Below the pieces are notes generated by a model. It saw nothing but the letters and a program-made list of their open reading frames with translations. It ran no database searches and had not been told where the DNA came from. The position numbers and the translations under genes are program-made. From Ulva prolifera (lineage: Eukaryota > Chlorophyta > Ulvophyceae > Ulvales > Ulvaceae), in the NCBI GenBank assembly GCA_023078555.1, contig CM041199.1, positions 3,220,513 to 3,284,512 on the forward strand: DNA of 64,000 nt, given 5' to 3'. Of this stretch, positions 35,441 to 60,292 are shown in pieces (position 1 is the first letter of the stretch; each line of letters starts with the position of its first letter).

Positions 35441-35545
35441 CAGCTAGCACTGCGGCTTGTTGCGTGGCGTGCGGTTCCCCTGGTTGCTGCTCGCGGTGCT
35501 ACCTGCCTTGCTTGCTTTGTCCTTGTAACACAGCTAGCACTGCGG
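35441..35545 (+). mobile_element. LINE-2 tail micro-insertion, 75 bp, with target duplication
   Basis: The insert 35456-35530 ends ...GCTTTGTCCTTGTAA. It is flanked by CAGCTAGCACTGCGG at 35441-35455 and 35531-35545 (15 of 15). Its body (GTGCGGTTCCCCTGGTTG) matches the 3' end of the LINE-2 copy at 52.7 kb, so the two belong to the same subfamily. Confidence 0.85.
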
Positions 35546-35636
35546 AAGGCAGCAGTGAGTGACTCTTCCGTACCGTACGGAAGTGACTGAATGATCGGGT
35601 GAGTGTGTCGCCTGTTTACTCAGCCTATACCAGAGT

Positions 35637-36690
35637 GACACCCACACACGCACGCACAGACCCCACGACCCACACACAATAACACAACGGTGCGGTGCGG
35701 CGTGGGCCGGCGAGGCTGCGCGGCGGTGTGCCGGGCTGGCGTGGTGTGCTGTGGCTCGGTGGGGTGGGGGTGGGTCTTGGGGCTAGGGCGGCCCCCAGCA
35801 ATCGGGCGGCCATGATGGGCGGCCTCAGGCAGCAGTGTGTTGGGTTTGGCCCTGTCGTACGGCGGCGGGCGTTGTGGTGTGGGTGGTTGTGATGTTGTGT
35901 GTCGCCGGTGGGGTCTGTGCGTGCGTGTGTGGGTTCGGGTTTGTGGGTGTGTGGGTGTGTGGGTGTGTGCTTGGCGGTCTGCGGATCTGTGTCTTTTGAT
36001 GCGCCGGTGGTGGGTCTCCTGGGCGTGGTGGGTGTCGCGTGCGTGCGTGTCTGTGTGTTTGCTTCGTCTGTTTGCTTCTGTCGCGGTGCTGCCCGCCTTG
36101 CTGCGTTTGTCCTTGTAACACAATAACACAACCCCCAACGCCGCAACGCCCGCAGCTGCACGACAGGGCCGCGCCCAACACACCGCTGCCCGAGGCCGCC
36201 CATCCTGGCCGCCCGATTGCCGGGGGCCGCCCCAGCCCCAAACCCCAGCCCACCCGCAGAGCCACGCCAGCCCGGCACACCGCCACGCAGCCCCGCCGGC
36301 CCACGCCGGACCGTTCCCAGGACGACGCAGCGCCCAAGCTGCCGCCGCAGCCCCTGCACATGCCAACAAAGGCATCCCGCACGCCCAGCGGACCCGGCCC
36401 AGCCGGAGTCAGCGGCCATCGGTGGGTGGCGTCAAGCGGGCGGGGCCCCCGAGGGGCATCCCACCGCTCAGGCAGGATGGCCTGTAAGCGGCGAGAGGTC
36501 ATCAGACGGGACTGTGAGCTCCGCCAAAACTGCCTTGCCCGCATGACGTGCCATCAGCGGAGCTGCGGCGCGCACCTGGCGCGCCACTGCACGACAGATC
36601 TAGAGCGTCGTCGAGAGATCGCTCATTGCGTTCTCCAGGAATCGCCGCCGAGAGGCCGCGCCAGACCCTCAAGCCACATCATCAAGCCTG
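35637..36690 (-). mobile_element. LINE-2 3' part, antisense, interrupted by a sense copy
   Basis: Reading minus, the copy starts in the C-terminal coding part. Around 36466-36550 the frame reads MARHAGKAVLAEL then SDDLSPLTGHPA and TGA. It continues through the 3' UTR and is cut at 35688/36133 by the nested copy, resuming at 35674-35637. The two halves join across the target duplication and align continuously with the UTR of other copies. The last 200 bases or so of the UTR, including the TTGTAACA end, are missing. Confidence 0.75.
35675..36132 (+). mobile_element. LINE-2 3' UTR copy nested in an antisense copy
   Basis: The element 35689-36118 (430 bp, 5'-truncated within the UTR) ends CTGCGTTTGTCCTTGTAA. 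Perfect 14-bp duplications CACAATAACACAAC lie at 35675-35688 and 36119-36132. Confidence 0.9.
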
Positions 36691-37400
36691 CCAGCCACAT
36701 TATTGTTGTGTGTACACTAGAGTGCCACATCCTACGCCTGCACCACAGTGAAGGCCTAGCACTGCATAGACTATCCATCCCTTTTGTACAGGGAAGACTG
36801 CGATAAGGCAGTTGCACTGCACAGCTAAGCAAAGCGCGCAGGTCTAGGGCAGGACGTCCCCACAGTGTTAATGAACGCAGCTACAGAACGCCTCCAATAC
36901 ATAGCCAGCATCCCGCACATCACGACCAGCAGGCTAGCCCGTGGAAGTAGCTCCATTTCTTGAAGAGTACTGCTGGTTGAACGCACGTGTCCAAAGAGGC
37001 GGAGTGACAGCTGTGGCATTCTATGAAGTTCATGCATGCAAATTGCCTCCCTGCCATCTCACGGCGGTAGTGCACGCCAAACATTAAGCATAGATCGCGC
37101 AGCGCCCTCTGCCTGCTCGTCCGTCAGGCCTATAGCTAGGAGCATGTGTGTTACAATGACCAAGTCGGAGAGGCCGGCAGCACCGCCAAGGCCGTGCACA
37201 TCCATGCTTTCTGAAGCCACGGATTGCGACGGGCGCCGACCCAACGCCGAAAACCGACCATTGCTGCAGAGCACAGCAAGATGGTCGTACACGCACGCCA
37301 GCCGCACACCTGCACATGCACCCACACTCACCCACCCATCTAGGAGCATGCATGTGTGTGTGAAAGGGGTGAAAGGGCAGTAGTATGACCGCTACACCAC

Positions 37401-37420
37401 TGGGGCCTTGCAAGGCCCCA
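37401..37420. repeat. Perfect 20-bp palindrome
   Basis: TGGGGCCTTGCAAGGCCCCA. The flanks (GACCGCTACACCAC on the left, GGTGTATCCGCC on the right) extend the fold imperfectly. The left flank reversed contains GTGGTGTAGCGGTCATA, shared with 39.2 kb. Confidence 0.85.
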
Positions 37421-37666
37421 TTGGTGTATCCGCCGTGCCACTGGAGTACTCCTAGTGTCAAGTACTACGAGTGTCAACTTGATTGAATCTGTGGGCGGAC
37501 TCGGAGGCCTGATGCTGGTCTGATTCTGGTCATGCATGAATATGGATGCCTTCATGAAGGCTGCAGGCAGGAGAACATGATGCTAGCCTGTGTGAAAGTT
37601 CACGACTGGAGAACGCCAGGTCCATGGGAGTGCAGCCGTGCATTGTAGCCATTGCATGCAGCCGTT

Positions 37667-37708
37667 GTACAGTCAGATGCGAACAGTCAGATGCGTACAG
37701 TCAGATGC
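37667..37708. repeat. 14-bp tandem repeat, three units
   Basis: GTACAGTCAGATGC, GAACAGTCAGATGC, GTACAGTCAGATGC. Confidence 0.9.
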
Positions 37709-38663
37709 AGCACATAGCTGCCACGGTGCTGTGATGTATGTGATGTAAATTACGCATTGTACAACCCAAGCGGCGACACAAACTTGCACGACGACGATAG
37801 CTACATATGTTATGAGAACTACTGGTGGTGAAGGAGTGCCGTTTCTGGAACTTCCGGCTTGAAACACATTAGCACGTACATGATCATCACGTCGAAGTGA
37901 TCTCTTCTTCTGGTGTGTTTGTCTATTCCTGTTCATTCTTCTGCAAATAGGACCTACTACCAGATGAGTCAAATGTTCTGGTGCAAACATTACACTGTCT
38001 GGCATGATCAGCCGCAGGTGTGGCCAGAGCAAACTGCATTTGCGGCTGTTCTCCTGGCAAGCCCACACATTGGCCAAACTTGTAGCGGCCCAAATACGCA
38101 CGCCCTATTAGTAGTCTGGCAGGATCAGGGCCCGCGGGGGCTTCAAGTTGCCCCGCATCACAGCGCCAAACTTGTCACTAAGCCCATGTGACGCGCGCCC
38201 ATCACTGACTGGCAGAGGGCCAGGCCTAGGGTTCTACACATGTGACACCGGTACGTGGCGCTATTATTGGCTGAGTCTAGCATGCATATCAGTGGCGAAT
38301 TGAGCCAGAGGCCGCCCGATGCGTGCACCTGCGTGCATCTGCACGTGGCATATATGGCAGACTTCGCACAGTGCTCGCCACCACACTGGCAGCTGCTGTA
38401 CAGCATGTAACGTTCTACCCACGCACTCTTGGGTCACGTCTGCGTATCCAATAGGAGCTCCTGTCTAGACAGAACTGCTGCCTTCGTGTTGTTTGAAGCA
38501 TCCGCGTCGTCTTCGCCTGTAGGCAGCCACGATCCTGGGTACCCGCGTGACTCTCCACAGTACGTGGCAGCAGTCTGAGCAGCAACAGGCCTGAGGAGGC
38601 CCGACCGGCACATCTTCTGCGGCTCTCGGCGGCGTTACTTGTTACAGTTGTCGGTGTACTACT

Positions 38664-38709
38664 AGTTGTGGTCACAAAAGAGCGAACGGGAGCAGACAAA
38701 CAGTTGTGG
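38664..38709 (-). mobile_element. LINE-1 tail micro-insertion, 30 bp, with 8-bp duplication
   Basis: The insert 38672-38701 (TCACAAAAGAGCGAACGGGA...) is the reverse of the LINE-1 3' end. AGTTGTGG flanks it at 38664-38671 and 38702-38709. Confidence 0.7.
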
Positions 38710-39213
38710 ACGTAGTGGTAATTCGCGTATCGAGCAGCTGCACCTTACTTACCAGGTGCCTTGGTCCGACACGGAGTCCGTGTCTCAATTGAGAGTTCGA
38801 GCTACTGTGGACTCTGAAGGCTCGCGGAGGAATCGACGTCTCACGGCGAGGACAGGTGCTGCGGGGTTGGAGCTGACGCCCCTGAAACCACGAAGTCATG
38901 CCCGGCGCGACGTCACGGGTGCGATCATCGCGCTGCATGCATTGCTGTTCGCGTGCGCGTCATGTATGCACACCTGTATCTGCATGTTGGTGGGAGCCAG
39001 GGAAGATGCAGCCAAGGCCTTGGAACGCTGCTGCCCACGCACAGCAGTGTGGGCACATATGTGCATGCTCCACAGATGGACGTGAATCTGTTCGGACACG
39101 GCTGTTTAAATTTTGAGCCAGCTGATGTAGCACTTGCACTTGGTGCCGTCTGCTCTGAGTCCATGTGCAAGCTTGCGCAGCCTGAGGGCACCATGGGCTT
39201 GAGCTAGCATTGC

Positions 39214-39255
39214 GGCAATCCAGTGGTGGTGTAGCGGTCATATCACTGGATTGCC
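39214..39255. repeat. Foldback hairpin, 12-bp perfect arms
   Basis: GGCAATCCAGTG and CACTGGATTGCC around an 18-base loop with GTGTAGCGGTCATA. Outer GCTTGAG/CTCAAGC extends the pairing. The TCCAGTG...CACTGGA core recurs at 48.7 kb. Confidence 0.8.
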
Positions 39256-39844
39256 TCAAGCGCCTATGTTTCTTTGACCAATTGATATTGGTTCAAACTG
39301 ACTGAGTGCTGTGTGCATACGGTGTCTGGCAGGCGGTCGCTTGATGCAGAATTTTCGTTCGCAGCCTACACAAGCTGCTGCCAGTACACGTGTTGGTACC
39401 ATACGTGCTGTGCTTGTGTCTGTGAGCCTGTTGTAGACTTGCTTACCTCATCACATCTTGTACTGCATGGTGTGACGTACATGTAGTACATGCAAAGCTG
39501 CCACCGAGTTCAGGCTGGGCAGGCTTGGGTGCTGGCTGAGATGGTCTTCTCTTGCATCAACAATTGCACTCATGATATCGTGCTGGTCTACACCATACAT
39601 GCATGTGATACATGTGTGCAGACAAGCTTTGTTCTGGGATGCATGTTCTTGGTCAACACAGGTTCGTACTCTTATGATGGCGCAGGCACCACGTGTGGTG
39701 CCCGCGGCGATACCTACGCTGCCTCCCTGACTTGGTGCTGCAATTGCAAGTCGGAGAGGCAGCGCTGCCTAGGCACCTAGGAAGCTGCCTCTCTGACAGG
39801 CAGCCTATGCAGCACCGCAACAGATACACATGCACTCGCAGTTT

Positions 39845-39911
39845 CACACAGCGCTACTGCCTTAACTTGCTTGCTTGCTTGCTTTGTGATTGTAACACAC
39901 AGCACTACGGC
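39845..39911 (+). mobile_element. LINE-2 tail micro-insertion, 35 bp
   Basis: The insert 39861-39895 ends ...GCTTTGTGATTGTAA. Flanks CACACAGCGCTACTGC (39845-39860) and CACACAGCACTACGGC (39896-39911) match at 14 of 16, which suggests an older event. Confidence 0.75.
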
Positions 39912-40169
39912 ATGCATGTTTGTTGCCGGCCTCTCCGCGGCGCCCTGGCGATGCTGCCGGCCTCTCCGCGGCCGGCTTTCGCTTTGCAACACACGGCAGT
40001 TTTGCCGGTGCACGCGGCGCGCCATGCGCGGCGGTGATTATAATCACCATAGCACAGCACTGCTAGTATACAATGTGGCCATATCGGCAGCGGCAGAAGA
40101 TTGTTGTAAACAAGGCGAGAAGGGTTCCAGACGATACTCATGACTGTGTATACATGTACATGGATGTGT

Positions 40170-40233
40170 GTTGATGTTGATTCGGATGAGATTCGGTTTC
40201 AGTGTTTGCTTTCTCCAGTTCACTCTTTTGTAA
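40170..40233 (+). mobile_element. LINE-1 3' tail fragment, 64 bp
   Basis: GATTCGGATGAGATTCGGTT followed by a copy of the tail ending CACTCTTTTGTAA matches the last bases of LINE-1 almost exactly, in plus orientation. No adjoining target duplication could be confirmed. Confidence 0.8.
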
Positions 40234-40523
40234 ATCCTGGACATGGATCGACATATCATAGCGCTTATGCAGGTAGCCCGCTACTAGCTAGTAGAAGTCC
40301 TGCAGCGAACGCTGATTCCAGCAGCGTGTGCCTGTGCCCGGGGGATCCTCCACGCGGCTCATGTCCGAACTCTTTCCCTACTAGTATCCGTCACATCGCT
40401 GAAGGATAGTTTGCGTCACATCGCTGAAGGAAGGCGCAGCGGCTGGATCAGAGCATCAGCTACACCACTGCCGGCAAGTCCACTGCTTTCTCCATCGTGA
40501 ACTATTTTCTCAGTCGTCAAGTC

Positions 40524-41801
40524 ATGCTGCCGATGGACATGAAGTATGTCATGCTGTGCCTTTACATGTGCTTGGCCCTCATCTGCACATCAACTAGAGT
40601 GCGTGGCGTACCTGCGTCAGCGGGGGTCACCCCACAGCCTCGCATCGGACGGCTTTCCACCCAGCAGCAAGATGCACTTGAGCTTGACAGCGCTTCACTC
40701 AGAGCGCCCGATGCAGACTCTCAGTCCGAACACGCCGCCGGCGCCTCTGACGCCAGACATGCATTCTCGGAGTGGGAGACAACTGACATGTACACTGTCG
40801 CGAGGCCGTATGTGATCAGCGACTCCACCATCGGCGGTCTCGCTGCACCGGAGCTTCAGGCTGAGCTGGAGGCTGAGCTTCAGGGCCAGCAGCGGGTCGT
40901 TTCGGCGGCCGCGGCGCTGCGGGGGCTACTGCATGGGCGTCTCGAGCCCAGGAAGTACCCGACCTGCTCAAGGTGCAGAATCGTGCAGTGCCGGCGCAGC
41001 CGCAGCGGGCGGAGGTGCACCGGCCACTGCCGCACCGGCACGCGGCTGCTCAACTGCAGCTCGTCCAGCATCTCCATGGCGGCGTGCGCGGTCCCCGATC
41101 CGCCGCCGACGATCGAGGAGCTACGGAGTCTGGGGCCCAGCAGAATCGATGCTATCGCGGAGTACGACACGGTGGTGGTGACCGCTGAGGCGCCGTACAT
41201 CGGCTGCGCCGACATCGCCAACCGACCCTCCTCCTGCCCGGCCCCTGGCACGCGTGCAACACTCGGCCGCTTGCCGGCAACGGTGATGTCCAGCCGCTGT
41301 ATATCGGAGTACTATCTTGCGTTCTGCGAGCCGCTACTTCCATTTGGGGTGTGCGACTGCTTGTACCGCCTGGGGTCAGCCCGCCCTGGCTCGCGCAGAG
41401 CACGATTTACGCGGCGCCCCTGCAGAACGTCCGAGCTAGCAGCGGGATCTGGTGTCGGTGGCGCTGACGGGACCCCGTCAGACGCGGACATCACGGTGCT
41501 GCCTGCCGGAAACATTACGCAGACATGGTTCTCAAATTTCACAGATCCAGGGCAGGAGCCACGGTATCAGTTCAGCTTGACCGCGTCGGTCAGGGGGACC
41601 AATGTGGATGTGTCTCTAGACATCTACCAGGGGGTAATCACGTACGCGGACTATCCGTACGGGGAAGTGTATGAAGGTCCAGAGGATGGCGAAGGATACC
41701 ATGATAATGCATATGATTACGGCTATGACTACGGTGATGAGCCTGTGCCATCCGGCGATGGTGATGTTCTTGTTAGTCCTGTAGATGGATTAGCCATCTA
41801 A
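40524..41801 (+). CDS. Secreted cysteine-rich protein, family 2 (single exon)
   Basis: 425 codons from ATG 40524; MDMKYV at 40533 is an alternative start. The N-terminus has a hydrophobic signal stretch (YVMLCLYMCLALICTS). A variable Ser/Ala-rich region follows, then LQAELEAELQ, a dense cysteine cluster (YPTCSRCRIVQC...CTGHC) and EYDTVVVTAEAPYIGCADIA. Next come CPAPGTRATL, LLPFGVCDCLY, AAGSGVGGADGTPS and WFSNFTDPGQEPRY with a possible N-glycosylation site (NFT). VDVSLDIYQGV is followed by a Tyr/Asp/Gly-rich acidic tail. Most of the length is shared with the gene at 61.1 kb. No known family recognised. Unlike its neighbours it has no introns. An extracellular structural role is inference. Confidence 0.75.
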   Translation: MLPMDMKYVMLCLYMCLALICTSTRVRGVPASAGVTPQPRIGRLSTQQQDALELDSASLRAPDADSQSEHAAGASDARHAFSEWETTDMYTVARPYVISDSTIGGLAAPELQAELEAELQGQQRVVSAAAALRGLLHGRLEPRKYPTCSRCRIVQCRRSRSGRRCTGHCRTGTRLLNCSSSSISMAACAVPDPPPTIEELRSLGPSRIDAIAEYDTVVVTAEAPYIGCADIANRPSSCPAPGTRATLGRLPATVMSSRCISEYYLAFCEPLLPFGVCDCLYRLGSARPGSRRARFTRRPCRTSELAAGSGVGGADGTPSDADITVLPAGNITQTWFSNFTDPGQEPRYQFSLTASVRGTNVDVSLDIYQGVITYADYPYGEVYEGPEDGEGYHDNAYDYGYDYGDEPVPSGDGDVLVSPVDGLAI

Positions 41802-42705
41802 ACAGTAGGACACTGTCTGGCAGATCAGAGGTTGTGGTGCGAGGCATGCAGTCAGTCTAGACCAAAGATAGTGAAATGTTTGTACAATACAGTAGAGTAA
41901 ATATGGATTCACTCAGCCGTATCCTGAGAAGGATATCAACAGGTCGGGTCGAATGTGAAGCGCTTGCCCACTTACGTCGCTTACAAATCAGCACGAGCCA
42001 CGTTCAGTGGCACGGCTAGCCGCCTACGCAATTGGACAGCTGCGAGGGCGTGGTGCGGTACATGCATCACGTGTGACAGAACGCACCGCCAGGATGTTGC
42101 AATTGGTGACCGGTATGCCAACTTGAAGCCACAAGTGCCTGTACCTGCAGCTAGGTGCAGATATCTTGCATGTACCTGCTACACCGTGTGCTGCAGTACT
42201 ACTAGTAGTGTATTGCAATATTGCACGGGAGATTGTGGTGCTGTGAAAAGCAGGACCTGCCAGCAGGACACCGCAGCAGTACATCATGCTGGCAGCATCA
42301 GGACATGCCAAAAAGCTCACGTGAGCTTTTTGGCATCTCCTCAGGCTGCAGGGCCTTGGGCACCCCAGAGGCACACTGCATGCATGTCCACAGGACATAT
42401 GCGATGATGGTTTACTAAAACTAGTAGCTGATAACAGCACACCGGCAATGTAAGGCGGTTGTTGAGATGTAGTTCCCGCATAGAGCAGGTAATCCTCAAG
42501 TTCACTCGCAATATTAATTAATTGCAAGGCAAGCTTAAGCATGCAAGCAGCTGCAGTGAGTGATGGCTGGTGGAAAATATTAACTTGCTACGGACTGTTG
42601 GTCACATCTCTATAGCCTCAGGCTAACTACAGGCTGTAGTCCTTGCGTGCCCTGCAGCTGGCGCTAATCATAAGCCTGCTATGCAGCATAGCAATCAGAT
42701 GGGTG
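41802..42705. other. Intergenic; nothing coding recognised
   Basis: Holds only the palindrome at 42305-42336. Confidence 0.4.
42305..42336. repeat. Perfect 32-bp palindrome
   Basis: ATGCCAAAAAGCTCAC and its exact reverse complement with no loop. This is the longest perfect palindrome found in the window. Confidence 0.9.
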
Positions 42706-43196
42706 CACAACTCTGCTGAACGGCTTGGGCGATGCCTTGTCCTGGGTGCGGTGCGGCGTGGGCCGGCGAGGCTGCGCGGCGGTGTGCCGGGCTGGCGTGG
42801 TATGCTGTGGCTTGGTGGGGTGGGGGTGGGTCTTGGGGCCGGGGCGGCCCCCGGCAATCGGGCGGCCATGATGGGCGGCCTCAGGCAGCAGTGTGTTGGG
42901 TTTGGCCCTGTCGTACGGCGGCGGGCGTTGTGGTGCTGGTGGTTGTGATGTTGTGTGTCGGCCATGGGGTTTGTGCGTGCGCGTGTGTGGGTTTGGGTTT
43001 GTGGGTGTGTGGGTCTGTGCGTGTGTGTGCTGGTGTGTGGGTGTGTGCTTGGCGGTCTGCGGATCTGTGCCGTTTGCTACGCCGGTGATGGGTGAGATGT
43101 TCGTGGGTGTCTTGGTGTTTGCTTCGTCTCAGGCTGCTTGCTCCTTTCGCGGTGCTGCCCGACTTGCTGCCTTTGTCCTTGTAACACAACTCTGCT
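42706..43196 (+). mobile_element. LINE-2 3' UTR copy with 12-bp target duplication
   Basis: The element 42718-43184 (467 bp) starts within the UTR (GAACGGCTTGGGCGATG) and ends CTTTGTCCTTGTAA. CACAACTCTGCT flanks it at 42706-42717 and 43185-43196 without mismatch. Confidence 0.9.
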
Positions 43197-45897: not shown

Positions 45898-46083
45898 ATG
45901 AGTGGAAACGACGCCGCGAAACAGCGCGAGGATGACCCGCAGCAGCACGGCGTGAAGCATGCGACACGTTGTCTCCAAGGAAAGACACCGATGATATTGT
46001 TGGCATCCTTCTGGCTGCTCAACCTGGTGCGCAACCGGCATCACTCCGCAATCTCTCGTCCAGACCTAGATATTGTCTTGTAG
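45898..46083 (+). pseudogene. Fragment of the 49.8-52.5 kb membrane-protein family
   Basis: A 61-codon frame from ATG 45898 to TAG 46083. Its middle (GVKHATRCLQGKTPMILLAS, then FWLLNLVRN) aligns with VGHDVQQAKERFLGNTLLVV and LWLFNVVRI of the second exon at 50.7-51.2 kb. Flanking exons are not visible. Confidence 0.35.
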
Positions 46084-47162: not shown

Positions 47163-47792
47163 CACACATGCATGGTCTGCAGGCCATCCGGCCTGAGCGG
47201 TGGGGTGCCCCTTGGGCGCCCCGTCCGCTTGATGCCACCGACCTGTGGCCTCTGACTCCAGCTGGGCCGGGTCCGATGGGTGTGCGGGATGCCTTCGTTG
47301 GCATGTGCGGGGACTGCGGAACGGCTTGGGCGATGCATTGTCCTAGGTGTGGTGCGGCATGGGCCGGCGGGGCTGCGCGGCGGTGTGCCGGGCTGGCGTG
47401 GTATGCTGTGGCTTGGTGGGGTGGGGGTGGGTCTTGGGGCCGGGGCGGCCCCCGGCAATCGGGCGGCCATGATGGGCCTCAGGCAGCAGTGTGTTAGGTT
47501 TGGCCCTGTCGTACGGCGGCGCGTTGTGGTGCTGGTGGTTGTGATGTTGTGTGTCGGCCGTGGGGTTTGTGCGTGCGCGTGTGTGGGTTTGGGTTTGTGG
47601 GTGTGTGGGTCTGTGCGTGTGTGTGCTGGTGTGTGGGTGTGTGCTTGGCGGTCTGCGGATCTGTGTCACTTCCTACGCCGGTGATGGGTGAGATGTTCGT
47701 GGGTGTCTTGGTGTTTGCTTCGTCTGCTTGCTCCTTTCGCGGTGCTGCCCGACTTGCTGCCTTTGTCCTTGTAACACACATGCATGGTCTGC
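47163..47792 (+). mobile_element. LINE-2 3' UTR copy, UTR-length, with 18-bp target duplication
   Basis: The element 47181-47774 (594 bp) starts AGGCCATCCGGCCTGAGCGG, where TGA corresponds to the stop codon of the LINE-2 ORF (GHPA then stop), and ends CTTTGTCCTTGTAA. CACACATGCATGGTCTGC flanks it perfectly at 47163-47180 and 47775-47792. It thus consists of the whole 3' UTR and almost nothing else. Confidence 0.9.
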
Positions 47793-47857
47793 TTGCTTCT
47801 TTCGTGGTGCTGCCCGCCTTGCCGGCTTTATCTTTGTAACACACATGCATGGTATGC
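47775..47857 (+). mobile_element. LINE-2 tail micro-insertion at the same target
   Basis: The insert 47793-47839 (47 bp, ...GGCTTTATCTTTGTAA) lies between the second and a third copy of the 18-bp site (47840-47857, one mismatch). Two insertions in the same orientation therefore used one target sequence. Confidence 0.85.
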
Positions 47858-47930
47858 TCGCGGGATGTCCGGATGCACACCTATTACTACTGTATCAGAT
47901 AAGTTCTCCTGCAGGAGGACATGCCTGATG

Positions 47931-48018
47931 CACTCATGGGGTCATGCTTCTTTCGCGGTGCTGCCCGCCTTAAGGCCTTAATTAATTGCTGCCTTTGTCC
48001 TTGTAACATTCATGGGGT
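47931..48018 (+). mobile_element. LINE-2 tail insertion, 64 bp, with internal AT insert
   Basis: The insert 47943-48006 ends GCCTTTGTCCTTGTAA. Flanks CACTCATGGGGT and CATTCATGGGGT match at 11 of 12. The stretch AAGGCCTTAATTAATTGC inside it is absent from other copies. Confidence 0.8.
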
Positions 48019-49145: not shown

Positions 49146-49147
49146 TT

Positions 49148-49184
49148 TACAAGGATAAAGGCCGCGAGGCAGGCAGCACCGTGA
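49148..49184 (-). mobile_element. LINE-2 tail fragment, antisense
   Basis: TTACAAGGATAAAGGCCGCG and the following GGCAGGCAGCACCG are the reverse of the family tail. No target duplication resolved. Confidence 0.65.
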
Positions 49185-49504: not shown

Positions 49505-49563
49505 TTTTTGCGCTGCTGTTGTTTCTGCAGTGCCACCCACCTGGCCTGCTTTGCCTCTGTAAC
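49505..49563 (+). mobile_element. Diverged LINE-2 tail fragment
   Basis: GCGCTGCTGTTG...CCTGGCCTGCTTTGCCTCTGTAACAC parallels the GGTGCTGCCCGCCTTGCTGCC...TTGTAACAC tail with several changes. Confidence 0.5.
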
Positions 49564-49766
49564 ACGCAAGAATATGCCCGTGCACACTGTACGTGAGCAC
49601 ATTGAATACATGTTTACACAATATGTTGCACAGCGTTCCGACGGTGCGACCTGCTAGCTACTCTGGCTGTGCTTTTTCGAGAAGTGGCCTTCGAATTCGC
49701 ACCAGAGTATCCCTCAGTTAACTTTCGAAGGCGAATTCGCTCTGGTCACCATGCTGCACGGTGCAG

Positions 49767-51164: not shown

Positions 51165-51496
51165 TCTGTCACTGGACAGGGGAGAGATGCTCTGCGGGCA
51201 TGGCAGCTGCCTAGAGTGCAGAGACCGAAGTGTCAGTGTCACGGTGTGGATCAGCATGCATGCACTCAGTTGCCATCAGACTTCGTACGCGATTTGCGCT
51301 CAGCGGTCAGCCCCCATGGTGCCCAATGGCCAGGGGCATCAACATCAGCACTCGAGCGGAGGAACCACATCAATGCTTCCCATGTTGTGCGAGATCACTG
51401 GGACTGGTCTGCATGCATAAGCAAGAATAAAGCCCTCTGGGCGCATCCGTGTCCGGTCTCTAGCTCGCCTTTGCGAAAGCACCTGCCGCTGTGTAG

Positions 51497-52485
51497 GCAT
51501 TGATGATCGTGTCCATAGTCGTGTGGAAGACATTCCTGGATCAGCATTTGAGACCTGGTAGCTGGGATGACGATTTCGGCAGGGTGGCCGCTGCCGCCTA
51601 CCAGTACACTGTAGCCACTCAGGCGGCAGTGATGCTTCTGTGGCCAGGCATCACGTGCGCATTGCCGTGGAGGAGCAGAGCCACGTGGCGGACAGATGCC
51701 TTTCAAGCGCACTGCAATGGCGTCCTCACCAGCGGCATGCTGGCATCAGGGCTGCTGGCGATCCTTGTGGCCACTTTTATCCGTCAAATGGACATCAATG
51801 ATGGTGCGTGCAGTACCTGAGAGTTACATGATGTGACTTCAATTATGTGTCTTTGATGATCTGCTCCCACCTGCAGTGAACTGGTTACAAGCTTGTAACC
51901 AGGTGTAGAAAGTACACACATGCATGCTGCAGCCACGGGGACATTGACGTGCACATGCATGTCTGCTACGACCGCTGCTGCTACTAGTTCCTATCGCGTG
52001 ACTCAGCTGGTGTATGATTTGCAGATGGAGAAGGTGTGCTGTTCAGTAAAGCAAAGGGAGACTACTACCTGCGAGTGGTCCGCACATGGGAGGCCTTCGG
52101 CTACGTTTCTGTGATATCTGCAGTACTGCTAGGCCTGTCTGCTGCGTGGCTGGTGGGACAACAATCTGCAGATATCGATGAAGGCGCCTGTGGATACTAT
52201 GCGGGAGTGCGTGCACCCAGCCAAGAGGGCCCACAGCTGCCAGACCAGCTGCATCTGCAGCCCCAGCCGCATTACGGTACCGCGGCGAGCCAAGTGGCTG
52301 CAGGCGGTCTGAGTGGCGGCCACATGCATGCACCAATGTACGTGGGGCCTCACATGCATATGGTAGCTCAGCATCCGCCTGCGGTGGTGCATGGCACACC
52401 ACCTCCCCTGCATGCAGGGCAAGCCGTGTTGCAGACAGCCGGCTCTCCACAAACAGGCATCAGAGATGTGCAGACCCAGGTGTAA
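51497..52485 (+). CDS. Membrane protein, family 3, gene E (two 3' exons)
   Basis: Exons 51497-51803 (307, donor GTGCGT) and 52025-52485 (461, TAA stop) join to 255 residues. The first exon starts at a TGTAG acceptor with Ala-Leu, as in D, and aligns through VVWKTFLDQH, LLWPGITCAL, DAFQAHCNGVL and ASGLLAILVATFI. The second exon starts GEGVLFSKAKGDYYLRVV and has one more span (VSVISAVLLGLSAAWLV). D's last span is missing; instead there is a soluble tail of about 100 residues rich in Gln, Pro, His and Met (GGHMHAPMYVGPHMHM). The His-Met run could bind copper or another metal, by inference only. The first exon or exons are not identified. Confidence 0.65.
51881..51902. repeat. Perfect 22-bp palindrome
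   Basis: CTGGTTACAAGCTTGTAACC plus AG, in the intron of gene E. Confidence 0.85.
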
Positions 52486-52597
52486 TTCGTCCGACGAGTA
52501 GAGTCTGCACTAGGACATCCAGGTATGGTTAATCTTGGCGAAGAATAAGTCCTCGAATGTTCCATTCTGGCTGAAAGGCGTTGGTGCACATCAATGA

Positions 52598-52678
52598 TGC
52601 CAGGATCTTCATTCTTTACTCCGGGGCTGTACATGTGTTTGTGCTACAATTGCCAGGATCTTCATTCTTTACTCCGCG
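52598..52678. repeat. Direct repeat next to the LINE-2 3' end
   Basis: CCAGGATCTTCATTCTTTAC plus CCGSGGCTG occurs near 52600 and 52652, 24 bases apart. It may be a leftover of a target duplication at the LINE-2 tail, but the middle piece carries no tail. Confidence 0.6.
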
Positions 52679-52679
52679 G

Positions 52680-54110
52680 CTGCAACTTGAAGGACGAAGT
52701 AAGCAAGGCAGGTAGCACCGCGAGCAACAACCAGGGGAACCGCACACCATGGTGTGCGGTTCCCGTGCACGCAACAAGCCACACACAGCACACATCAACA
52801 CACGCACGCAACGGCAGCACCCGCGCCGGCCACAGCCACGCAGCCACACATACGACCACCCACACACTGGCAGCAAGCCACCCAAGGCTCCCACCCAGCA
52901 CCCACAAGCACAACCACACGCCCACCCCCTCCCGCACCCGGCCCACCAGCCAGGCGCAGGAGCCCCGAAAGCTCATGCAGCAAAGGCCGCCGAGCACAGA
53001 AACAGCGAAACCCCAACAACGACCCCCGCCCCGGGGGGGCCCCCGCCCAGCCCTTGCACATCACCCCGTCCACCCACAAACACATACCCGCAACCCCCAA
53101 AGACCAGCCCAGTGTGCCCAAACCACCCGGCCGCGCCCCAATGGCGGGCCACACGCAGACCCTCGAGCTCGGGATGCCAGCGGTGGAGCGCGGTACGCCA
53201 GAGCCACCACTACGACAAAGCGGACGAGGCCGCGAGCGCACGCAGCGACGACCGCTCATCAGGCAGCCTGGGCGGGCGCGCAGCGCCGCTCAGGCCGGGT
53301 GGCCTGTGAGCGGCATGAGGTCATCGGACGGGAGTGCCAGCCCCGTCACAACTGCCTTGCCCGGATGGCGCGCCATCAGCGGGGCAGCGGCGTGCACCTG
53401 CCGAGCCGCCGCGCGGCACGCCGTCGTGGACAAGTCGCGCACCGCATTCTCTAAGAACAGCCGCAGAGAGGCTGCGCCCGAACCTGCAGCAACGTCAGCA
53501 AGCCGGTTCAGGAAGGCGAATGCGAACCCCCTCATATGCGCCCCGATCACCCGCAGCCGCACGCGCACAAAACGGAGCTCGAGCTGCCACCGCCAGCACA
53601 GCCAGGATGTTTCCACCTGAACGTCGGGGTGGGCCAGCCGCACAAAATACAGGGGGATGAGACACTCAACTCACACTCACACACCAGCGCGGCATACCGT
53701 CGCGACAACGCCGTCACCACCAAACGCGCCTGAGTGCGGCAAGCATGCCTGACTTGCTCACTGAAGCCACAGCAAATGCAGCGGCGTGCCATGGGTGCGC
53801 CCGGGCGTTCCAGCCACGGCAAAGACGGCTGCAGCCATGCTGGGGCGTGGCCCCCGGCGGAGTCGCGGCATCCGGCACCGGAGTCCGGCCATCTGGCCAG
53901 TGCGGGAGGAAGTGTTGCGGGGACGCGCCGGGCGGCCCGTCGCTCAGGCCAGCCAACCGCTGCTGCAGTGTCTGAGAGCTGCCTGTGTGAGCGCTGTTCT
54001 GGAAGAAATTTTCTCTTGCGATTGCGCGGGGGGTCCCGGGGGCCATGCAACCGCAGGAACTTCACACAGGCGCGGGCTTTCCCAGCTGACGCATTTGCTG
54101 AGCGTGTAAT
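52680..54110 (-). mobile_element. LINE-2, 5'-truncated and decayed 3' part
   Basis: Reading minus, the coding part is clearest at 53290-53500: LNRLADVAAGSGAASLRLFL, a basic stretch, MARHPGKAVV and DDLMPLTGHPA, then TGA. The first of these parallels VGQLGDVAAASGRISKGAFV near the C-terminus of LINE-1, so the two are related. Further upstream, to about 54.1 kb, frames change and stops appear; a Cys-rich piece (CICCGF) may be the remnant of the zinc knuckle. About 600 bases of C/A-rich (plus) UTR follow, ending GTCCTTCAAG instead of GTCCTTGTAA. The 5' limit is approximate. Confidence 0.65.
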
Positions 54111-54225
54111 CGGTTGAAGTCACCGATTGGCAATATTGAGGGAGCACCGTCAGCCCTAGTGCACCGTGGAGGCAGGTGTTGATGACGACGGGAAAACGTC
54201 ACCCTACACATGCGCACAGGTTTAC

Positions 54226-54298
54226 AGCGCGCGCGTGCCTCCGCCTTTACAAAAGAGTGAACGGGAGAAAACAAACACAGAAACCGCGCGCGCGTGCC
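54226..54298 (-). mobile_element. LINE-1 tail micro-insertion, 45 bp, with 14-bp duplication
   Basis: GCGCGCGCGTGCCT at 54226-54239 and 54285-54298 flanks CCGCCT plus TTACAAAAGAGTGAACGGGA and further tail sequence, the reverse of the LINE-1 3' end. Confidence 0.85.
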
Positions 54299-54538
54299 TT
54301 ATCTCGTATGAGTTTGAAGTCACACATCTCTGATCATGGGACACGCGATGGCGATGACGATCGAATGTGTGTGCGAATCTGGCTGCTGTTCGAGATGCGT
54401 GCCGGCGCCGCTCAAGTCTCGCTTTACCGACCCTGACGGATATTTAGAATACGTCTTCGATCTATCTCGAGATACGTACACAGCCTCGCCTCAACTTCCT
54501 CGTGAGGCACCTTCGATGTCGCGGGACCGAGCCTCCCC

Positions 54539-54594
54539 ACGACTCATTGGTTACAGGTTTGGTTACAAAAGAGTGAACGGGAACGACTCATTGG
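54539..54594 (-). mobile_element. LINE-1 tail micro-insertion, 32 bp, with 12-bp duplication
   Basis: ACGACTCATTGG at 54539-54550 and 54583-54594. The insert contains GGTTACAAAAGAGTGAACGG plus 12 extra bases (TTACAGGTTTGG) on the tail side. Confidence 0.8.
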
Positions 54595-54635
54595 TGGACT
54601 AGTACTCCGTCACAATTGTACATGTGTTGATTCTG

Positions 54636-54673
54636 CGCATGACCTGTTACAAAAGCGTGTTACCGCATGACCT
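54636..54673 (-). mobile_element. LINE-1-like 18-bp insertion with 10-bp duplication
   Basis: CGCATGACCT at 54636-54645 and 54664-54673 encloses only GTTACAAAAGCGTGTTAC. The first 13 bases match the LINE-1 end with one change. Smallest candidate retro-insertion in the window. Confidence 0.55.
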
Positions 54674-54812
54674 AGGTCACTTCGAGCGTTTGGCTTGCAT
54701 AAGAAGCCCTTCAAGTTAAGTTACAACAGGACTGCCTGGATTGTTCACTCTTCTGCAATATTTGCTTGAGGTGTGCCTGCCACTGATCGACTCGAGTCGG
54801 ACTCAGCATATA

Positions 54813-57800
54813 CATACACCTGCGCTCATTACAAAAGAGTGAACGGGAGAAAACAAACACTGAAACCGAATCTCATCCGAATCAAATGCAACATACACCC
54901 ACACACACACGAACACTACAACCGCACTCACAACTCAGTCCGGCAGGATCGCGTCCTCCAGGCCCGCATCATATCGCAACCCTTGCTCCCGAGAGATGAC
55001 AAGCCCAGACTTCCGATACATATCCGCATTGCCGCGCTGCAATGACACCGACAACACCCGCAGCGCCCACTGGACAAACGCGCCTTTGGAGATGCGCCCA
55101 CTGGCAGCGGCCACATCCCCCAACTGACCGACGAACCTCACGGCAGCCTTGCCCATGAAGCCACACGATTCGACCGCAAACGGAACAAACCGGAACGCGG
55201 CATGGTCAGGCACGTCCCGCCGGAAGCGGTCCCGCTTCCTGTCCTCCGCCCGCTCCGCCGTCGCACCCGTCTCCCGCGCCGCAGCGGCCACGTATGAGGC
55301 CGCCGGCGCATGCGTGACCACGACGTCCACGGCCGCCATCTCCAGGCGCGGCATGACCACGACGACGTCCCCGCGGCGATTCAGCTCAACACCCGCGCCC
55401 CTCGCGAGGGCACGGTAGAGCGGCTCCAGGGCAGACTGCAGTCCGGCGTAAGAGGCGACCAGGCGCAAGGCACGAGCCAGGTTATCATGGCGCATCTGGG
55501 TCTCCTTTGCCACCTTCTTGCAGACCATGGCGTGGTCTGGTTCGGCGGCAACACCTGCACTGCATTTGCACGGAGGGGGGGGGACGTCCGTCGGGACGCG
55601 GAATCGCAGGCGGTGCCACACCGCCAGGACAAACATGTCGTCGCCCATGGTGAGAACGCCGCCCGGCAGAGCGGAGAGGAAGGCGCCTGCAGGCCCCCCC
55701 GAAGCGCTCCTGAGCCACGCCGCTTCCCGCCTGCCGGCCGGCGTGTCGAGGTCGATGCCCTGTAGCACGAGTGAGGCCGCATGGTCCGCGACCGCGCGCC
55801 CCACCTCGCGCTGGGCCGCTAGCAGCTTGCCCGAGACGAACGCGTCCGGCAGGTCGCGGGCATCCGCCTCCCACCCCAGCAGCTCATGCAGCTCGTCGAA
55901 CAAGCCTTGCCAGCGCTGCAACAGACTGCCCCGGCTGTGGCCGCGGAGGGGGCGGAGCAGGTCCGGGCAGCCGGCGAGGTTGCGCTCAGCCGTGCCGGCC
56001 CCCGACAGGAAAGCCGCGTCAGCGACGCTGTCCACCAGCATCGTCAGTCCGAGCCCGCCATGCCTGACAGGGGACATCAGCCGGTAAGCAAGCCGCCGCG
56101 TCTCAGCGTCAGTGGCCGAGTTGTCAGACGCGGCAGCAGCATCCGCAACCTCAGGCGGCAGGCACAGGATTGCGGCGGCACCGCGCCACACAGCGGCCTC
56201 CGCCCTGCGCATGTGCGGCTCGAGCACGGCATACGGCACCGTCCGCATCAGGTGCGTCATGCGCACACTCAGGGACACACGCAGCAGGAGGAACTGCGCC
56301 TGCACTGAGAGCGGGATGCGCACGAGGGTCTCGACGAGGCCCTCGACCTCGCGCGCCCGCGCGTCCAGCACCTCGGCGACGTACTCCGGGGTGCCCAGCG
56401 GCGTGCCGACAGCCTTGAAGCCCGCGTGCAGATCCCGAATGCCGAGCTCTGCGGCCACGGCGGCCGCCGCCTCGGCGTCGGCGCTGTGGACGCCGCATTT
56501 TGCCGGGTTCACCTCAAGCCCAATGCTGCGCACGCCGTCAGCTTCCACGCACAGCCGCCGGAACACGGCAGCTCCAGCCGCGAGGTCGCCCGCAATGCTG
56601 ATGTCGTCCAGGTACGCCACCACAGGTGCGCCGGCGCCTGACGCGTCGACGCGCTCCAAGACAGGCTGCAGGGTCAACGCAAACAGGAGGGGGCCCAGGG
56701 GGTCACCTTGGCGGACGCCACGTTGGCAGAGGACCGGCTCGACGTCCTCCGGAGCGCCCGCGATGTGCAGCGGGGTCCCGGCGCCGTACGCCCACTGCGT
56801 GAAGGGCAGCAGCGCCGGGGCACGCTCCTTCACGGCAGCGAACATGGCCGCGCGGTCGATGCAGTTGAAGGCGTTCTTCATGTCGACCGAGAACACCGAA
56901 GCGCCCTCGGCCAGAGCAGAAGACAGGCCGTGCACGACTGTCTCGGTCCCGCCCCGTGTGCCAACGCCGACCTGCAGCGGCGCCAGGCTCTCTCCGATGT
57001 CGCGGCCGTACTCGCGCAGGGCGCACACTGCCGCGAACCGGTACCAGGTCTCCCCCACCGCGATCGGCCGCGTGCCACCGTCCGGCTTCTCCAGGCCGAT
57101 GAGGAGCCCGTCCAGCAGGAACGTCTCCCGTGGCAGCATGCCGGACAGCATGTGGTTGACGACCGCCAGCAGCGCGTCGGTGGCTGCGTCCGAGGATTGG
57201 CATGCTGCGCAGATCATCTCGAACGTCCAGCCGGACGGGCCGGCCGACGACCCCCGATGGTGTGCGCTCACGGCGGCCACCGCCGCCACCAGCGCCTCCC
57301 GTGTCAGGCACAGAGCGGGGACATCCGGGTTCGGCTCCAGAGGGACCGGCGGATCTGCTGGCGGGAACAATGCGCGCAGACCGGCTTGGACCTCCGGGGA
57401 CCGTGCATCTGCGGGCTTGCCATCCTGCAATCCGCGGCCAGCTTTGTGAATGGAGCGCTTGATGCGAAAGCATCTGTCGATGTGTTGCGCCCGCAGCTGA
57501 TCTGCAGACATGGGAGCTTTGCGCCTCCCGGGCCAGCGGCCGGGCGGCGTTTCCTCCCACATCTCCACGGGCAGCCCGAGGGCGTAGTCGCGGCACCGCC
57601 CTGCCGCCGCTTTCCCAGAGCGCCGCCCCCTGCTGTACGCTAGCAGGCGCATGGGCAGGCGCATGAGCTCCTCGAAAGCGGCAACAACCTCCTCTCGCGC
57701 GCTGTCGCCGCGCGCATGCGTGCACGCGTCGGCCACCAGCTCCCACACCCTGGTGCACGACTCGGCCCACCCCAGCCGGGCGGCTGGGGGGACATGCTGC

Positions 57801-58700
57801 GGCAGGCGCAGCCGTGGGGCCGCGTTGGCCCGCTGCACTGGCGGGGCCGATGCAGCCGCACGGAGCCCGGCCTGTCTGCGGGGGCCCGCCCGCTGCGACT
57901 GGCTACCTGCTCCCCGTCCCTTGCCTTTCTTCTTACCTCCCCGCCGGGCACGTTGCTGCTTGGCGTTGCCGCCCGTGCCCCCACTGGCCTGCGCAGGGGG
58001 GGGTGCGCCGGCGGCTGCTGCGGCTTGGCGATGCGGCCGGCGGGTAGCAGACTGCTTGGCTGCTGCGCCTGCGAGGCCAGGAGGCGGGGGAAGGGGCGGG
58101 GAAGGGGTGTCGGCGGAGGCGGGCGGGGGTGGATGGTGGCACTGTGCACTGCCGTGAGCCCTGTCGTGCTGGTCGTTGCTGGTGGCTGGCGGCTGCTGAG
58201 GGGCAGCCGTGGCGAGCTGAGTCTCACCAGGCACCACATTCAGCGCCGATTTTACCTGTTTGCTTGTATCTGCAGAGAGATGAGCCTCGGTAGCTGTCCC
58301 GCTGGCAGGTGCTGCGCGCCGGCGCTTGGGCTGTGGAGACCCGCGCGGTGACTCGCGCTGCACGACTGCGAGCTGTCCATTGTTGCAGTTAACAACTTCA
58401 TTAGTATCTAGGATGCTACGTTGGTCTGTAATCAATAGGCTAGGTCGCACGGGCGACTGCGAAGCGTGCTGGCGGTTCAGGTCGCTCAGCTTTGCCTTTG
58501 ACGGCTCCTTCCGCTTCGGCTTGCCCATGGGACCCTAGCATTGCAGATATGGCCTAACAAGTATTATCAAATGCCAAGCGCCGAGCCTCCGGGGGCTCGA
58601 CTGCCATGCCGTGGACGAGGTCAATCGACACGACCAACAACAATCGACCAGCAACAAACAGTTCCGACCAGCAACAAACAGGAAGCGCCATACACCTGCG
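54813..58700 (-). mobile_element. LINE-1, apparently full-length RLE-type non-LTR retrotransposon
   Basis: The element runs on the minus strand from about 58688 to 54829. It has about 160 bases of 5' UTR, one ORF, and a 3' UTR of about 105 bases ending TTCACTCTTTTGTAA with no poly-A. CATACACCTGCG flanks it at 54813-54824 (four extra bases CTCA on the tail side) and 58689-58700. A third near-identical copy of that site at 58752-58763 bounds an opposite-strand tail insertion. Several solo tails of the same family lie within 1 kb downstream of its 3' end. The intact ORF and identical duplications point to recent insertion. Confidence 0.8.
54935..58528 (-). CDS. Reverse transcriptase/endonuclease protein of LINE-1 (1197 aa)
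   Basis: Uninterrupted ORF from ATG 58528 (MGKPKRKEPSKAK). Residues 1-240 are low-complexity and basic (KKKGKGRGAG), probably RNA-binding. The reverse transcriptase occupies roughly 400-800: GLLIGLEKPDGGTRPIAVGE, FSVDMKNAFNCID (catalytic Asp, about 553), QRGVRQGDPLGPLLFAL (about 604) and YLDDI (about 637). After a thumb-like region comes a zinc knuckle, C-x-C-x9-H-x3-C in PCKCSAGVAAEPDHAMVC (about 990). It is followed by a restriction-like endonuclease region with RHDNLARAL, RRGDVVVVMPRLE and AVDVVVTH (about 1051-1070). An apurinic-type endonuclease upstream of the RT is not seen. This order is that of the R2/CRE-like class, which inserts by target-primed reverse transcription. The clade cannot be named without a tree. 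Confidence 0.85.
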   Translation of the reverse strand: MGKPKRKEPSKAKLSDLNRQHASQSPVRPSLLITDQRSILDTNEVVNCNNGQLAVVQRESPRGSPQPKRRRAAPASGTATEAHLSADTSKQVKSALNVVPGETQLATAAPQQPPATSNDQHDRAHGSAQCHHPPPPASADTPSPPLPPPPGLAGAAAKQSATRRPHRQAAAAAGAPPPAQASGGTGGNAKQQRARRGGKKKGKGRGAGSQSQRAGPRRQAGLRAAASAPPVQRANAAPRLRLPQHVPPAARLGWAESCTRVWELVADACTHARGDSAREEVVAAFEELMRLPMRLLAYSRGRRSGKAAAGRCRDYALGLPVEMWEETPPGRWPGRRKAPMSADQLRAQHIDRCFRIKRSIHKAGRGLQDGKPADARSPEVQAGLRALFPPADPPVPLEPNPDVPALCLTREALVAAVAAVSAHHRGSSAGPSGWTFEMICAACQSSDAATDALLAVVNHMLSGMLPRETFLLDGLLIGLEKPDGGTRPIAVGETWYRFAAVCALREYGRDIGESLAPLQVGVGTRGGTETVVHGLSSALAEGASVFSVDMKNAFNCIDRAAMFAAVKERAPALLPFTQWAYGAGTPLHIAGAPEDVEPVLCQRGVRQGDPLGPLLFALTLQPVLERVDASGAGAPVVAYLDDISIAGDLAAGAAVFRRLCVEADGVRSIGLEVNPAKCGVHSADAEAAAAVAAELGIRDLHAGFKAVGTPLGTPEYVAEVLDARAREVEGLVETLVRIPLSVQAQFLLLRVSLSVRMTHLMRTVPYAVLEPHMRRAEAAVWRGAAAILCLPPEVADAAAASDNSATDAETRRLAYRLMSPVRHGGLGLTMLVDSVADAAFLSGAGTAERNLAGCPDLLRPLRGHSRGSLLQRWQGLFDELHELLGWEADARDLPDAFVSGKLLAAQREVGRAVADHAASLVLQGIDLDTPAGRREAAWLRSASGGPAGAFLSALPGGVLTMGDDMFVLAVWHRLRFRVPTDVPPPPCKCSAGVAAEPDHAMVCKKVAKETQMRHDNLARALRLVASYAGLQSALEPLYRALARGAGVELNRRGDVVVVMPRLEMAAVDVVVTHAPAASYVAAAARETGATAERAEDRKRDRFRRDVPDHAAFRFVPFAVESCGFMGKAAVRFVGQLGDVAAASGRISKGAFVQWALRVLSVSLQRGNADMYRKSGLVISREQGLRYDAGLEDAILPD

Positions 58701-58763
58701 TGATTCGGTTTCGGTGTTTGCTTTCTCCCGTACACTCTTTTGTAGCATATGCATACGCCTGCG
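58689..58763 (+). mobile_element. LINE-1 tail micro-insertion, plus strand, at the same site as LINE-1
   Basis: TGATTCGGTTTCGGTGTTTG and the following tail to CTCTTTTGTAG (58701-58745), then CATATG, lie between CATACACCTGCG (58689-58700) and CATACGCCTGCG (58752-58763). Orientation is opposite to the adjoining full LINE-1. Confidence 0.8.
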
Positions 58764-58878
58764 TGAGAAAATGTGCACCGGCACAAGTTTTTCAGCAAAG
58801 CGCAAGGTCATGATTATAATGGAGTGATGTGACGCGCGTATGTAGAGGTAATCATTGATTGCGTACGGTGTACGTACG

Positions 58879-58915
58879 GGCACCCTGGCCAGGGTGCCAT
58901 ACACCGGTGTATGGC
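58879..58915. repeat. Two abutting perfect palindromes
   Basis: GGCACCCTGGCCAGGGTGCC (58879-58898) overlaps GCCATACACCGGTGTATGGC (58896-58915) by three bases. Confidence 0.85.
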
Positions 58916-59689
58916 GCTTCGGTCGACGTATATATGCATCATGCATGATGCATTTCCCAATTGCAAGGTAATCGATTGATATCGTGCTTGCAAGGTAATC
59001 GACCTACTTACAATAGCTGTGATCTGCAGTACTTTTGCCCATCGATGGTCTGGACCTGTCGTATACGATATACGTGTACAGTACGTCACGAGCGAGAGCT
59101 CTTGCAATATTGGCACTGCCACTGGGTGCCCTACCTGCATGCACCGCCACGTGGCAGCACCGGTCGACCGCGCAGTTCACCGATACAAGCGGCGCATGCA
59201 TGTGTGGTGAATGTGCATGGTCAGCATAGCCCTGATCGTGATGTCGACGTGGCGTGAGAGTGGCGGCGCGGGTCTTCATGCATGTGATGTGGCGGGGAGG
59301 GCCCCGCCGGTCCCCTGTACATGTGGTGCTCTACGAGTACCTTTCTCCCTCGGAAAGGTTCCCACCAGACTTTGGCTCTGAGCACGTTTTCAGCGGCCAA
59401 TACTGTCTGTCGCAGAGGCCTCCTGAAGCCACCTTTGGAAGTGAGCATGGTCATCCGGAATGTCCTGGCCGCGGTCGCACTGGACCTCCCAGGTGGGAGC
59501 TCCGGTGCATCCCAGGTGGGAGCTCAGCTGGCCACATGGCTCGTGGTGTTCAAGCAGCAGAATCCTCATGTCCTGCAAACTGCTCTGCACCGCATCACGG
59601 TGTGTGCATCTGCTGAGTGCATCTGTTGCAGCTGTCATGACGGCATGCAGCAATTGCACATGGCCACCGAGTCTGAGTAGCATCAGATG
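58916..59689. other. No gene supported
   Basis: A plus frame at about 59395-59680 (LLKPPLEVSMVIRNVLAAVA, QVGAQLATWLVVFKQQNPH) looks protein-like after a TTTTCAG acceptor, but no family or partner exon was found. Confidence 0.3.
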
Positions 59690-60292
59690 CACAAGGGTGG
59701 GCCGTCCGGCCTGAGCGGTGGGGTGCCCCTTGGGCGCCCCGTCCGCTTGACGCCACCGATCTGTGGCCTCTGCCTCCAGCTAGGCCGGGTCCGGTGGGTG
59801 TGCGGGATGCCTTCGTTGGCATGTGCAGGGCCTGCGGAGACGGCTTGGGCGATGCATTGTCCTGGGTGCGGTGCGGCGTGGGCCGGCGAGGCTGCGCGGC
59901 GGTGTGCCGGGCTGGCGTGGTGTGCTGTGGCTCGGTGGGGTGGGGGTGGGTCTTGGGGCCAGGGCGGCCCCCGGCAATCGGGCGGCCATGATGGGCGGCC
60001 TCAGGCGGCAGTGTGTTGGGTTTAGCCCTGTCGTACGGCGGCGGGCGTTGTGGTGCTGGTGGTTGTGATGTTGTGTGTTGGCCGTGGGGTTTGTGCGTGC
60101 GTGTGTGGGTTTGGGTTTGTGGGTGTGTGCTTGGCGGTCTACGGATCTGTGTCTTCTGCGCCGGTGCGGGGTTTTTTTTTGGGCGTGGTGGGTGTCGCGT
60201 GCGTGGGTGTCTGTGTGTTTGCTTCGTCTGTTTGCTTCTTTCGCGGTGCTGCCCGCCTTGCTGCCTTTGTCCTTGTAACACAAGGGTGGGCC
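59690..60292 (+). mobile_element. LINE-2 3' UTR copy, UTR-length, with 14-bp target duplication
   Basis: The element 59704-60278 (575 bp) starts GTCCGGCCTGAGCGG, six bases inside the start of the 47.2 kb copy and just before the LINE-2 stop codon. It ends CCTTTGTCCTTGTAA. CACAAGGGTGGGCC flanks it at 59690-59703 and 60279-60292 without mismatch. Confidence 0.9.

Follow-up and report, generated by a model that had tools for sequence, protein, structure and literature searches.

The window analysed here, a 64,000-nucleotide stretch of the genome of the green alga Ulva prolifera (GenBank assembly GCA_023078555.1, contig CM041199.1, positions 3,220,513 to 3,284,512 of the forward strand), carries copies of a long interspersed element (LINE), called the CACA family below. 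Most copies of this element are 5'-truncated, and those listed in an earlier reading of the same letters (the original prediction) end in TTTGTCCTTGTAA or variants of it. Copies of the window are named W followed by their last element base (W- on the minus strand), and copies elsewhere in the genome L followed by a number. The window copies and their target site duplications (TSD) are the following, the offset being the number of bases between the element and the duplication.

59690-60292 (+): 5'-truncated copy; TSD 59690-59703, element 59704-60278, TSD 60279-60292 (CACAAGGGTGGGCC); 14 bp, exact, offset 0.
47163-47792 (+): 5'-truncated copy; TSD 47163-47180, element 47181-47774, TSD 47775-47792 (CACACATGCATGGTCTGC); 18 bp, exact, offset 0.
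47775-47858 (+): second short copy, 46 bp, with the other 3'-end variant, inside the CACA junction of the 47774 copy; 19-bp duplication, one mismatch.
42706-43196 (+): 5'-truncated copy; TSD 42706-42717, element to 43184, TSD 43185-43196 (CACAACTCTGCT); 12 bp, exact, offset 0.
35675-36132 (+): 5'-truncated copy; TSD 35675-35688, element to 36118, TSD 36119-36132 (CACAATAACACAAC); 14 bp, exact, offset 0.
35441-35545 (+): short copy with an extra CA; TSD 35441-35455, element 35456-35528, extra CA 35529-35530, TSD 35531-35545 (CAGCTAGCACTGCGG).
39845-39908 (+): weak copy, element of 38 bp; TSD CACACAGC[G/A]CTAC, 13 bp, one mismatch, below threshold.
47931-48018 (+): short copy; target CACTCATGGGGT, junction CATTCATGGGGT; 9-bp exact part and one mismatch, below the score threshold.
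24309-24385 (-): short copy; target CGCAGCATGCCGCC, junction CACAGCATGCCGCC; 18 bp, one mismatch, offset 2.
37136-37350 (-): diverged copy; junction CACACATGCTCCTAG, target CATGCATGCTCCTAG; 11-bp exact duplication from offset 4.

The nine junctions of the original prediction were all found where it placed them, but two do not follow CTTGTAA: the one at 47840 follows TTTGTAA and the one at 39896 follows ATTGTAA. The prediction also held that the duplications start with CACA right after TTGTAA. This stands for 60279, 47775, 43185 and 36119, which are exact and independent and read CACA in both copies. The 39896 case is weak, and the 47840 copy (left neighbour of its target: ccttgtaa) sits in the junction of W47774 and is thus not independent of it. 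The three remaining targets are not CACA. That of the 48007 copy is CACT; at 24.3 kb the target is CGCA, CACA is present at the 3' junction only and the junction CA is not in the target. The duplication of the 35529 copy is exact over 15 bp from offset 2, and its 5' copy reads gctg followed by CAGCTAGCACTGCGG, so that the first CA is absent from the target. The target of W-37151 is CATG, and no clear duplication was seen within 1 kb of W31869 and W-49147.

To the left of the 36118 junction (window 35680-36330), the sequence resembles by eye the reverse complement of the right side, and this copy may lie inside an older one on the opposite strand. At 22710-22719, TTGTAACACA occurs without the usual element body upstream; it was excluded from the counted copies.

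The genome searched (88.9 Mb, 44 contigs) contains 796 exact matches to the 3' end GCTTTGTCCTTGTAA, which are followed by CA in 712 cases and by CACA in 628. In contrast, CACA comes next in only 26 of the 1144 matches to GTTCACTCTTTTGTAA, the 3' end of a related control LINE family which also ends in TTGTAA. With these corrections, the original observation extends beyond the window. When junctions were read individually, CACA was next in 97 of 126 in the CACA family and in 0 of 24 in the control family, several of whose copies have clear duplications (e.g., L114 and L127, with 18 matching bases). The CACA family occupies hundreds of places; those listed are spread across C1-C4, and the targets are varied. 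The window holds one open reading frame (ORF) of the control family, identified by Pfam RVT_1 and a motif scan:

54935-58534 (-): control-family ORF, 1198 aa, with reverse transcriptase (RT), CKC..H..C and restriction-like endonuclease motifs.

This ORF is 33% identical to that of the CACA family, and a motif scan of one control-family protein found no N-terminal zinc-finger motif. Control-family 3' ends TTCACTCTTTTGTAA, with CACA absent, occur in the window at 54247-54834 (-) and 40233 (+).

The 126 copies comprise the first 100 listed places of the main 3' end (95 distinct), the first 20 listed of 247 places with a second 3'-end variant and 12 window copies; L075 was left out because it represents the L099 insertion again, through duplication of the segment. 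Scoring of the duplications began at flank base 5, which kept CACA from influencing its own selection. The cut-off score of 9 was reached by 65 copies, four of which were dropped by judgement: L033 (tandem array), L039, L067 (microsatellite) and W47774, whose match lies within the element. Among 373 flank-swapped pairs, made from the first set of 95 only, 2.9% pass by chance.

In the 61 copies kept, the median duplication is 15 bases, and the target reads CACA at the nick in 33, against a background of 0.91% per position in the same upstream sequences (binomial 5e-51). By set, the counts are 26/42 (main end), 4/13 (second variant) and 3/6 (window). That independent sites share the same four bases, as originally claimed, is thus borne out. 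CACA lies at -2 in 20 targets, at 0 in 33 and at +2 in 21 (48/61 have it at one of these positions), and at -3, -1, +1 and +3 in none, which indicates that the nick is in phase with the CA units. For most copies, homology to other copies stops at the start of the duplication (L063 and L089 are examples of exceptions). CACA belongs to the target, since duplications judged without their first four bases also show it. The idea that CACA is wholly the 3' end of the element and that targets are random, although CACA is seen at 97/126 read junctions, is highly improbable and was rejected, because the duplications place CACA in the target: their 5' copy starts with it too.

Empty sites were searched with 21 joined flanks, the best 40 of 82 candidates being scored. 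Among these, empty paralogues of whole length were found for two flanks (L053 and L010) and not for the other 19. L010 reads CACAGC in both copies of its duplication, and all 13 listed empty paralogues (L157-L169) read CAGAGC. In this one case, the copy of the locus that was hit had CACA.

Two unusual insertions were seen among the copies. At about 13 bases (TTTGTCCTTGTAA), L080 (C1:9572824-9573924) is the shortest copy seen; its 16-bp duplication starts CACATCTATGG, which begins with CACA. L085 and L086 (C1:11363758-11365531) lie head to head at a single near-palindromic TGTGTGTGCACACTGTG target, as would result had reverse transcription been primed from both strands.

The junctions also carry CA that the target does not supply. 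Eleven copies have a duplication that begins one or two bases past TTGTAA and a target whose first two bases differ from CA. Ten of these still have CA at the junction (L015, L045, L057, L066, L086, L104, L108, L146, W35528 and W-24329), L048 with AA being the exception. For two random bases, a hand estimate puts the probability of this at about 1e-11. The body of the duplication is exact in nine of the ten. The clean cases are L108, W35528 and W-24329, and L053 is backed by empty sites. The junction of L053 reads TTGTAA(CA)6TC and its 5' copy CTATACACATC; the empty paralogues read CTCTACACATC, CTCTACACACC and CTCTACAAACC. At this position the 5' copy and the empty paralogue L154 have (CA)2TC, and CACACC and CAAACC are found in the remaining two, so that about four CA units came from elsewhere. 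Because junctions have CA even where targets do not, the element RNA most likely ends in CA units, in agreement with the ...TAACACA end originally proposed for it.

The longest copy, L111, spans about 5.4 kb between 21-bp duplications starting CACACACACGG; its target reads TG followed by CACACACACGG and its junction TTGTAACT followed by CACACACACGG. It has a single open frame of 1535 codons, with N-terminal zinc-finger-like motifs (CPVC..H at 65, CPYC..H at 103; this is the one CACA-family protein scanned), an RT at 566-780 with a match to PDB proteins of R2 (E 2e-5) and a C-terminal knuckle, CPCG..H..C, at 1132. The Pfam scan of this frame gave a weak RVT_1 match (20.8 bits, under the cut-off of 29.6) and no endonuclease family, the APE kind included. 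PD..D..K is the catalytic motif of the C-terminal endonuclease in restriction-like-endonuclease LINEs. The C-terminal (R)GD, D and KRD residues common to the CACA and control families are (R)GD..D..K-like, and at the level of motifs this region resembles a restriction-like endonuclease. A single ORF with N-terminal zinc fingers, RT and a C-terminal zinc knuckle is the arrangement of the restriction-like-endonuclease group (R2, R4, NeSL, CRE, HERO), and the CACA element would be a LINE of this kind. The name LINE-2 used originally, if taken to mean the L2 clade, is at odds with an ORF with zinc fingers, an R2-like RT and restriction-like endonuclease motifs. Indeed, the L2 clade is defined by an APE-type endonuclease N-terminal in the RT ORF; none was found in the Pfam scan, and membership was rejected.

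An RT search of the genome, in which the best 92 of 502 candidates were scored and which therefore gives lower bounds, returned at least 20 matches with at least 75% identity spanning at least 424 of the 458 query residues, and at least nine of these lie in frames 1440 to 1556 codons long. A further group of dozens, at about 40% identity and often in frames of about 1200 codons, represents the control family. Six further long-frame copies, chosen from the RT matches, all have junctions that begin with CACA, and five of the six end in TTTTTCCTTTGTAA, a variant outside the counting pattern. Pure (CA)n surrounds two of them and a CA-rich repeat a third; in such surroundings a 5' side that matches is no proof of duplication. 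The remaining three junctions are CACACAAG, CACACCCA and CACATCCC, the last belonging to a copy without convincing duplication.

Taken with the junctions, these features make it reasonably probable that the element inserts by target-primed reverse transcription (outlined in PMC2881922), which requires a 3' end at the nick, at short CA runs, its CA-ending RNA pairing with a TGTG primer. One strand would be nicked after TGTG, where the element strand has CACA or a short CA run, as the duplications suggest if reverse transcription is target-primed. The TGTG 3' end would then prime reverse transcription on an RNA ending in ...CUUGUAA plus CA units, the CA part being deduced from the junctions. With a nick before CACA, four bases would pair; with a nick one step inside, two would pair and an extra CA would stay at the junction. 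An RNA end made of CA units would let the primer pair in several registers, which would account for the two classes of junctions. A second nick about 15 bases downstream would produce the duplication. The endonuclease and zinc fingers would probably set a loose preference for CA runs, and pairing with the RNA would fix the register and the start.

The pairing part of the original proposal is consistent with the CA-bearing targets and junctions, but the bases next to the nick fit it only in part. Base -1 of the CACA targets is A in 19/33 (background 26%), and an A there would also pair with the RNA; base -2 is A in only 2/33 (background 24%), although extended pairing predicts A. The scarcity of A at -2 speaks against simple extended pairing into TAA, and its enrichment at -1 together with depletion at -2 suggests that a protein preference probably acts too. 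Pairing and endonuclease preference are not separable from the sequence alone; the site may be chosen by pairing or by the endonuclease or zinc fingers.

The depletion at -2 is one of several points that weigh against the proposed mechanism. The second 3'-end variant has exact CACA in only four of its 13 targets. Ten of the 61 targets have a single CA only (including L147, which is cut by the end of its stretch), and L053, L087 and L137 have no CA in the first four target bases in this alignment. In seven of the ten extra-CA copies the target has CACA one step on, and expansion of a CA run after insertion could possibly account for them. Five copies (L020, L038, L047, L078 and L147) show the opposite: the target has CA and the junction a different pair. 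These may reflect later mutations or variable RNA tails. The endonuclease region found no match in a PDB sequence search, and its fold model has a pLDDT (predicted local distance difference test) of 40. Lastly, a pattern search for a second 3' end 15-45 bases past TTGTAACACA gave no clear bias towards old junctions: the 18 matches on the same strand reduce to seven loci, two short tandem arrays holding 3 and 10 of them, against five loci (six matches) in convergent orientation. Tandem arrays of the element 3' end and duplication occur at L032-L035 (C1:1803770-1803901) and at C6:7321933-7322282, the repeat units being 39 and about 34 bases long.

The CA of the RNA may be either encoded by the element or acquired by a transcript running into the flank. 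PMC1868727 gives UGUAA as the polyadenylation signal of derived chlorophytes and notes that in plants and animals cleavage occurs 13 to 30 bases downstream of such elements. With an element end in UUGUAA and cleavage downstream, the transcript could include the flanking CACA recreated by each insertion. That this flank-derived CACA, rather than an element-encoded tail, pairs with the next TGTG target, which would make it a self-renewing address, appears doubtful. If true, targeting would be inherited through the landing site, each insertion recreating CACA behind its own TTGTAA.

Alternatively, the protein alone would cut after TGTG and join an RNA that ends in UUGUAA and lacks CA, without any pairing. 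Half of the 50 copies with a score of at least 8 match the target from offset 0, the preference for A at -1 is what a protein footprint would give, and the zinc-finger motifs are present in the CACA-family protein scanned and not in the control-family one. Such a rule would account for the target, but it leaves the extra CA unexplained, both in ten of the 11 copies whose target lacks it and at L053, with its four extra units relative to the empty paralogues; this explanation is disfavoured by the junctions and unlikely.

A preference for (CA)n microsatellites or open CA-rich DNA, CACA being the remainder of such repeats, is quite unlikely. Three or more CA units are found in 24/61 targets, compared to 58 of the 469 runs of two or more on the plus strand of the window, and two of the six long-frame copies lie in pure (CA)n. 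However, 24 targets have exactly two units, 12 have one and one has none, and the bias is absent in the related family of the same genome. The preference for longer runs is compatible with both pairing and an endonuclease rule.

CA-linked targeting and such tails are already known in kind from the published descriptions cited here. Those of Kojima and Jurka (2015, PMC4640811) present Togen, a group of NeSL-related LINEs, as (TG)n-specific, and the related Utopia families as having N-terminal zinc fingers, RT, a C-terminal zinc finger and an endonuclease. As described there, Togen resembles the CACA element in its restriction-like-endonuclease kind and CA/TG repeat target, but in the CACA family one or two CA units suffice (36/61 targets have no more, and two of the six long-frame copies have a Togen-type (CA)n target), the majority of copies are dispersed, and junctions may contain CA that goes beyond that of the target. 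Since LINEs targeting (TG)n are known, the CACA element is a variant; what is added is a short target with CA supplied by the RNA, and a related control family in the same genome. With R2 it shares the RT similarity and single ORF, but R2 membership by a 28S ribosomal DNA (rDNA) target was rejected, its targets being hundreds of varied places and not rDNA only, and its C-terminal part has no PDB match.

The listing in Ohshima (2013, PMC3747384) gives 3' repeats of green-algal LINEs, including (CA)n and (CTTGTAA)n, in L1 and RTEX families. These are like the CACA family in their CA or CTTGTAA 3' ends; they are placed in the L1 or RTEX clades, and the CACA-family ORF shows no APE-kind endonuclease in Pfam. 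The same listing describes for UnaL2 a TGTAA-repeat 3' end, thought to serve template slippage (PMC3747384). This end is similar to that of the CACA family, but UnaL2 belongs to the L2 clade. UnaL2 comes from the eel and is not known to have a CACA target. In the open-access literature, nothing was found on green-algal or Chlamydomonas restriction-like-endonuclease LINEs, or on LINEs with CACA and target site duplication.

The chlorophyll a/b-binding family is matched 38 times in the window, and the translation of one stretch matches PDB proteins named chlorophyll a-b binding protein.

Whether LINEs choose their targets by the endonuclease or by pairing of the RNA end is a long-standing question. 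Two related families in one genome, with a common TTGTAA end and different targets, form a natural pair for a test of target choice, in which the zinc fingers and the RNA tail are swappable parts. Copies number in the hundreds, many show clear duplications, and empty paralogues exist for some.

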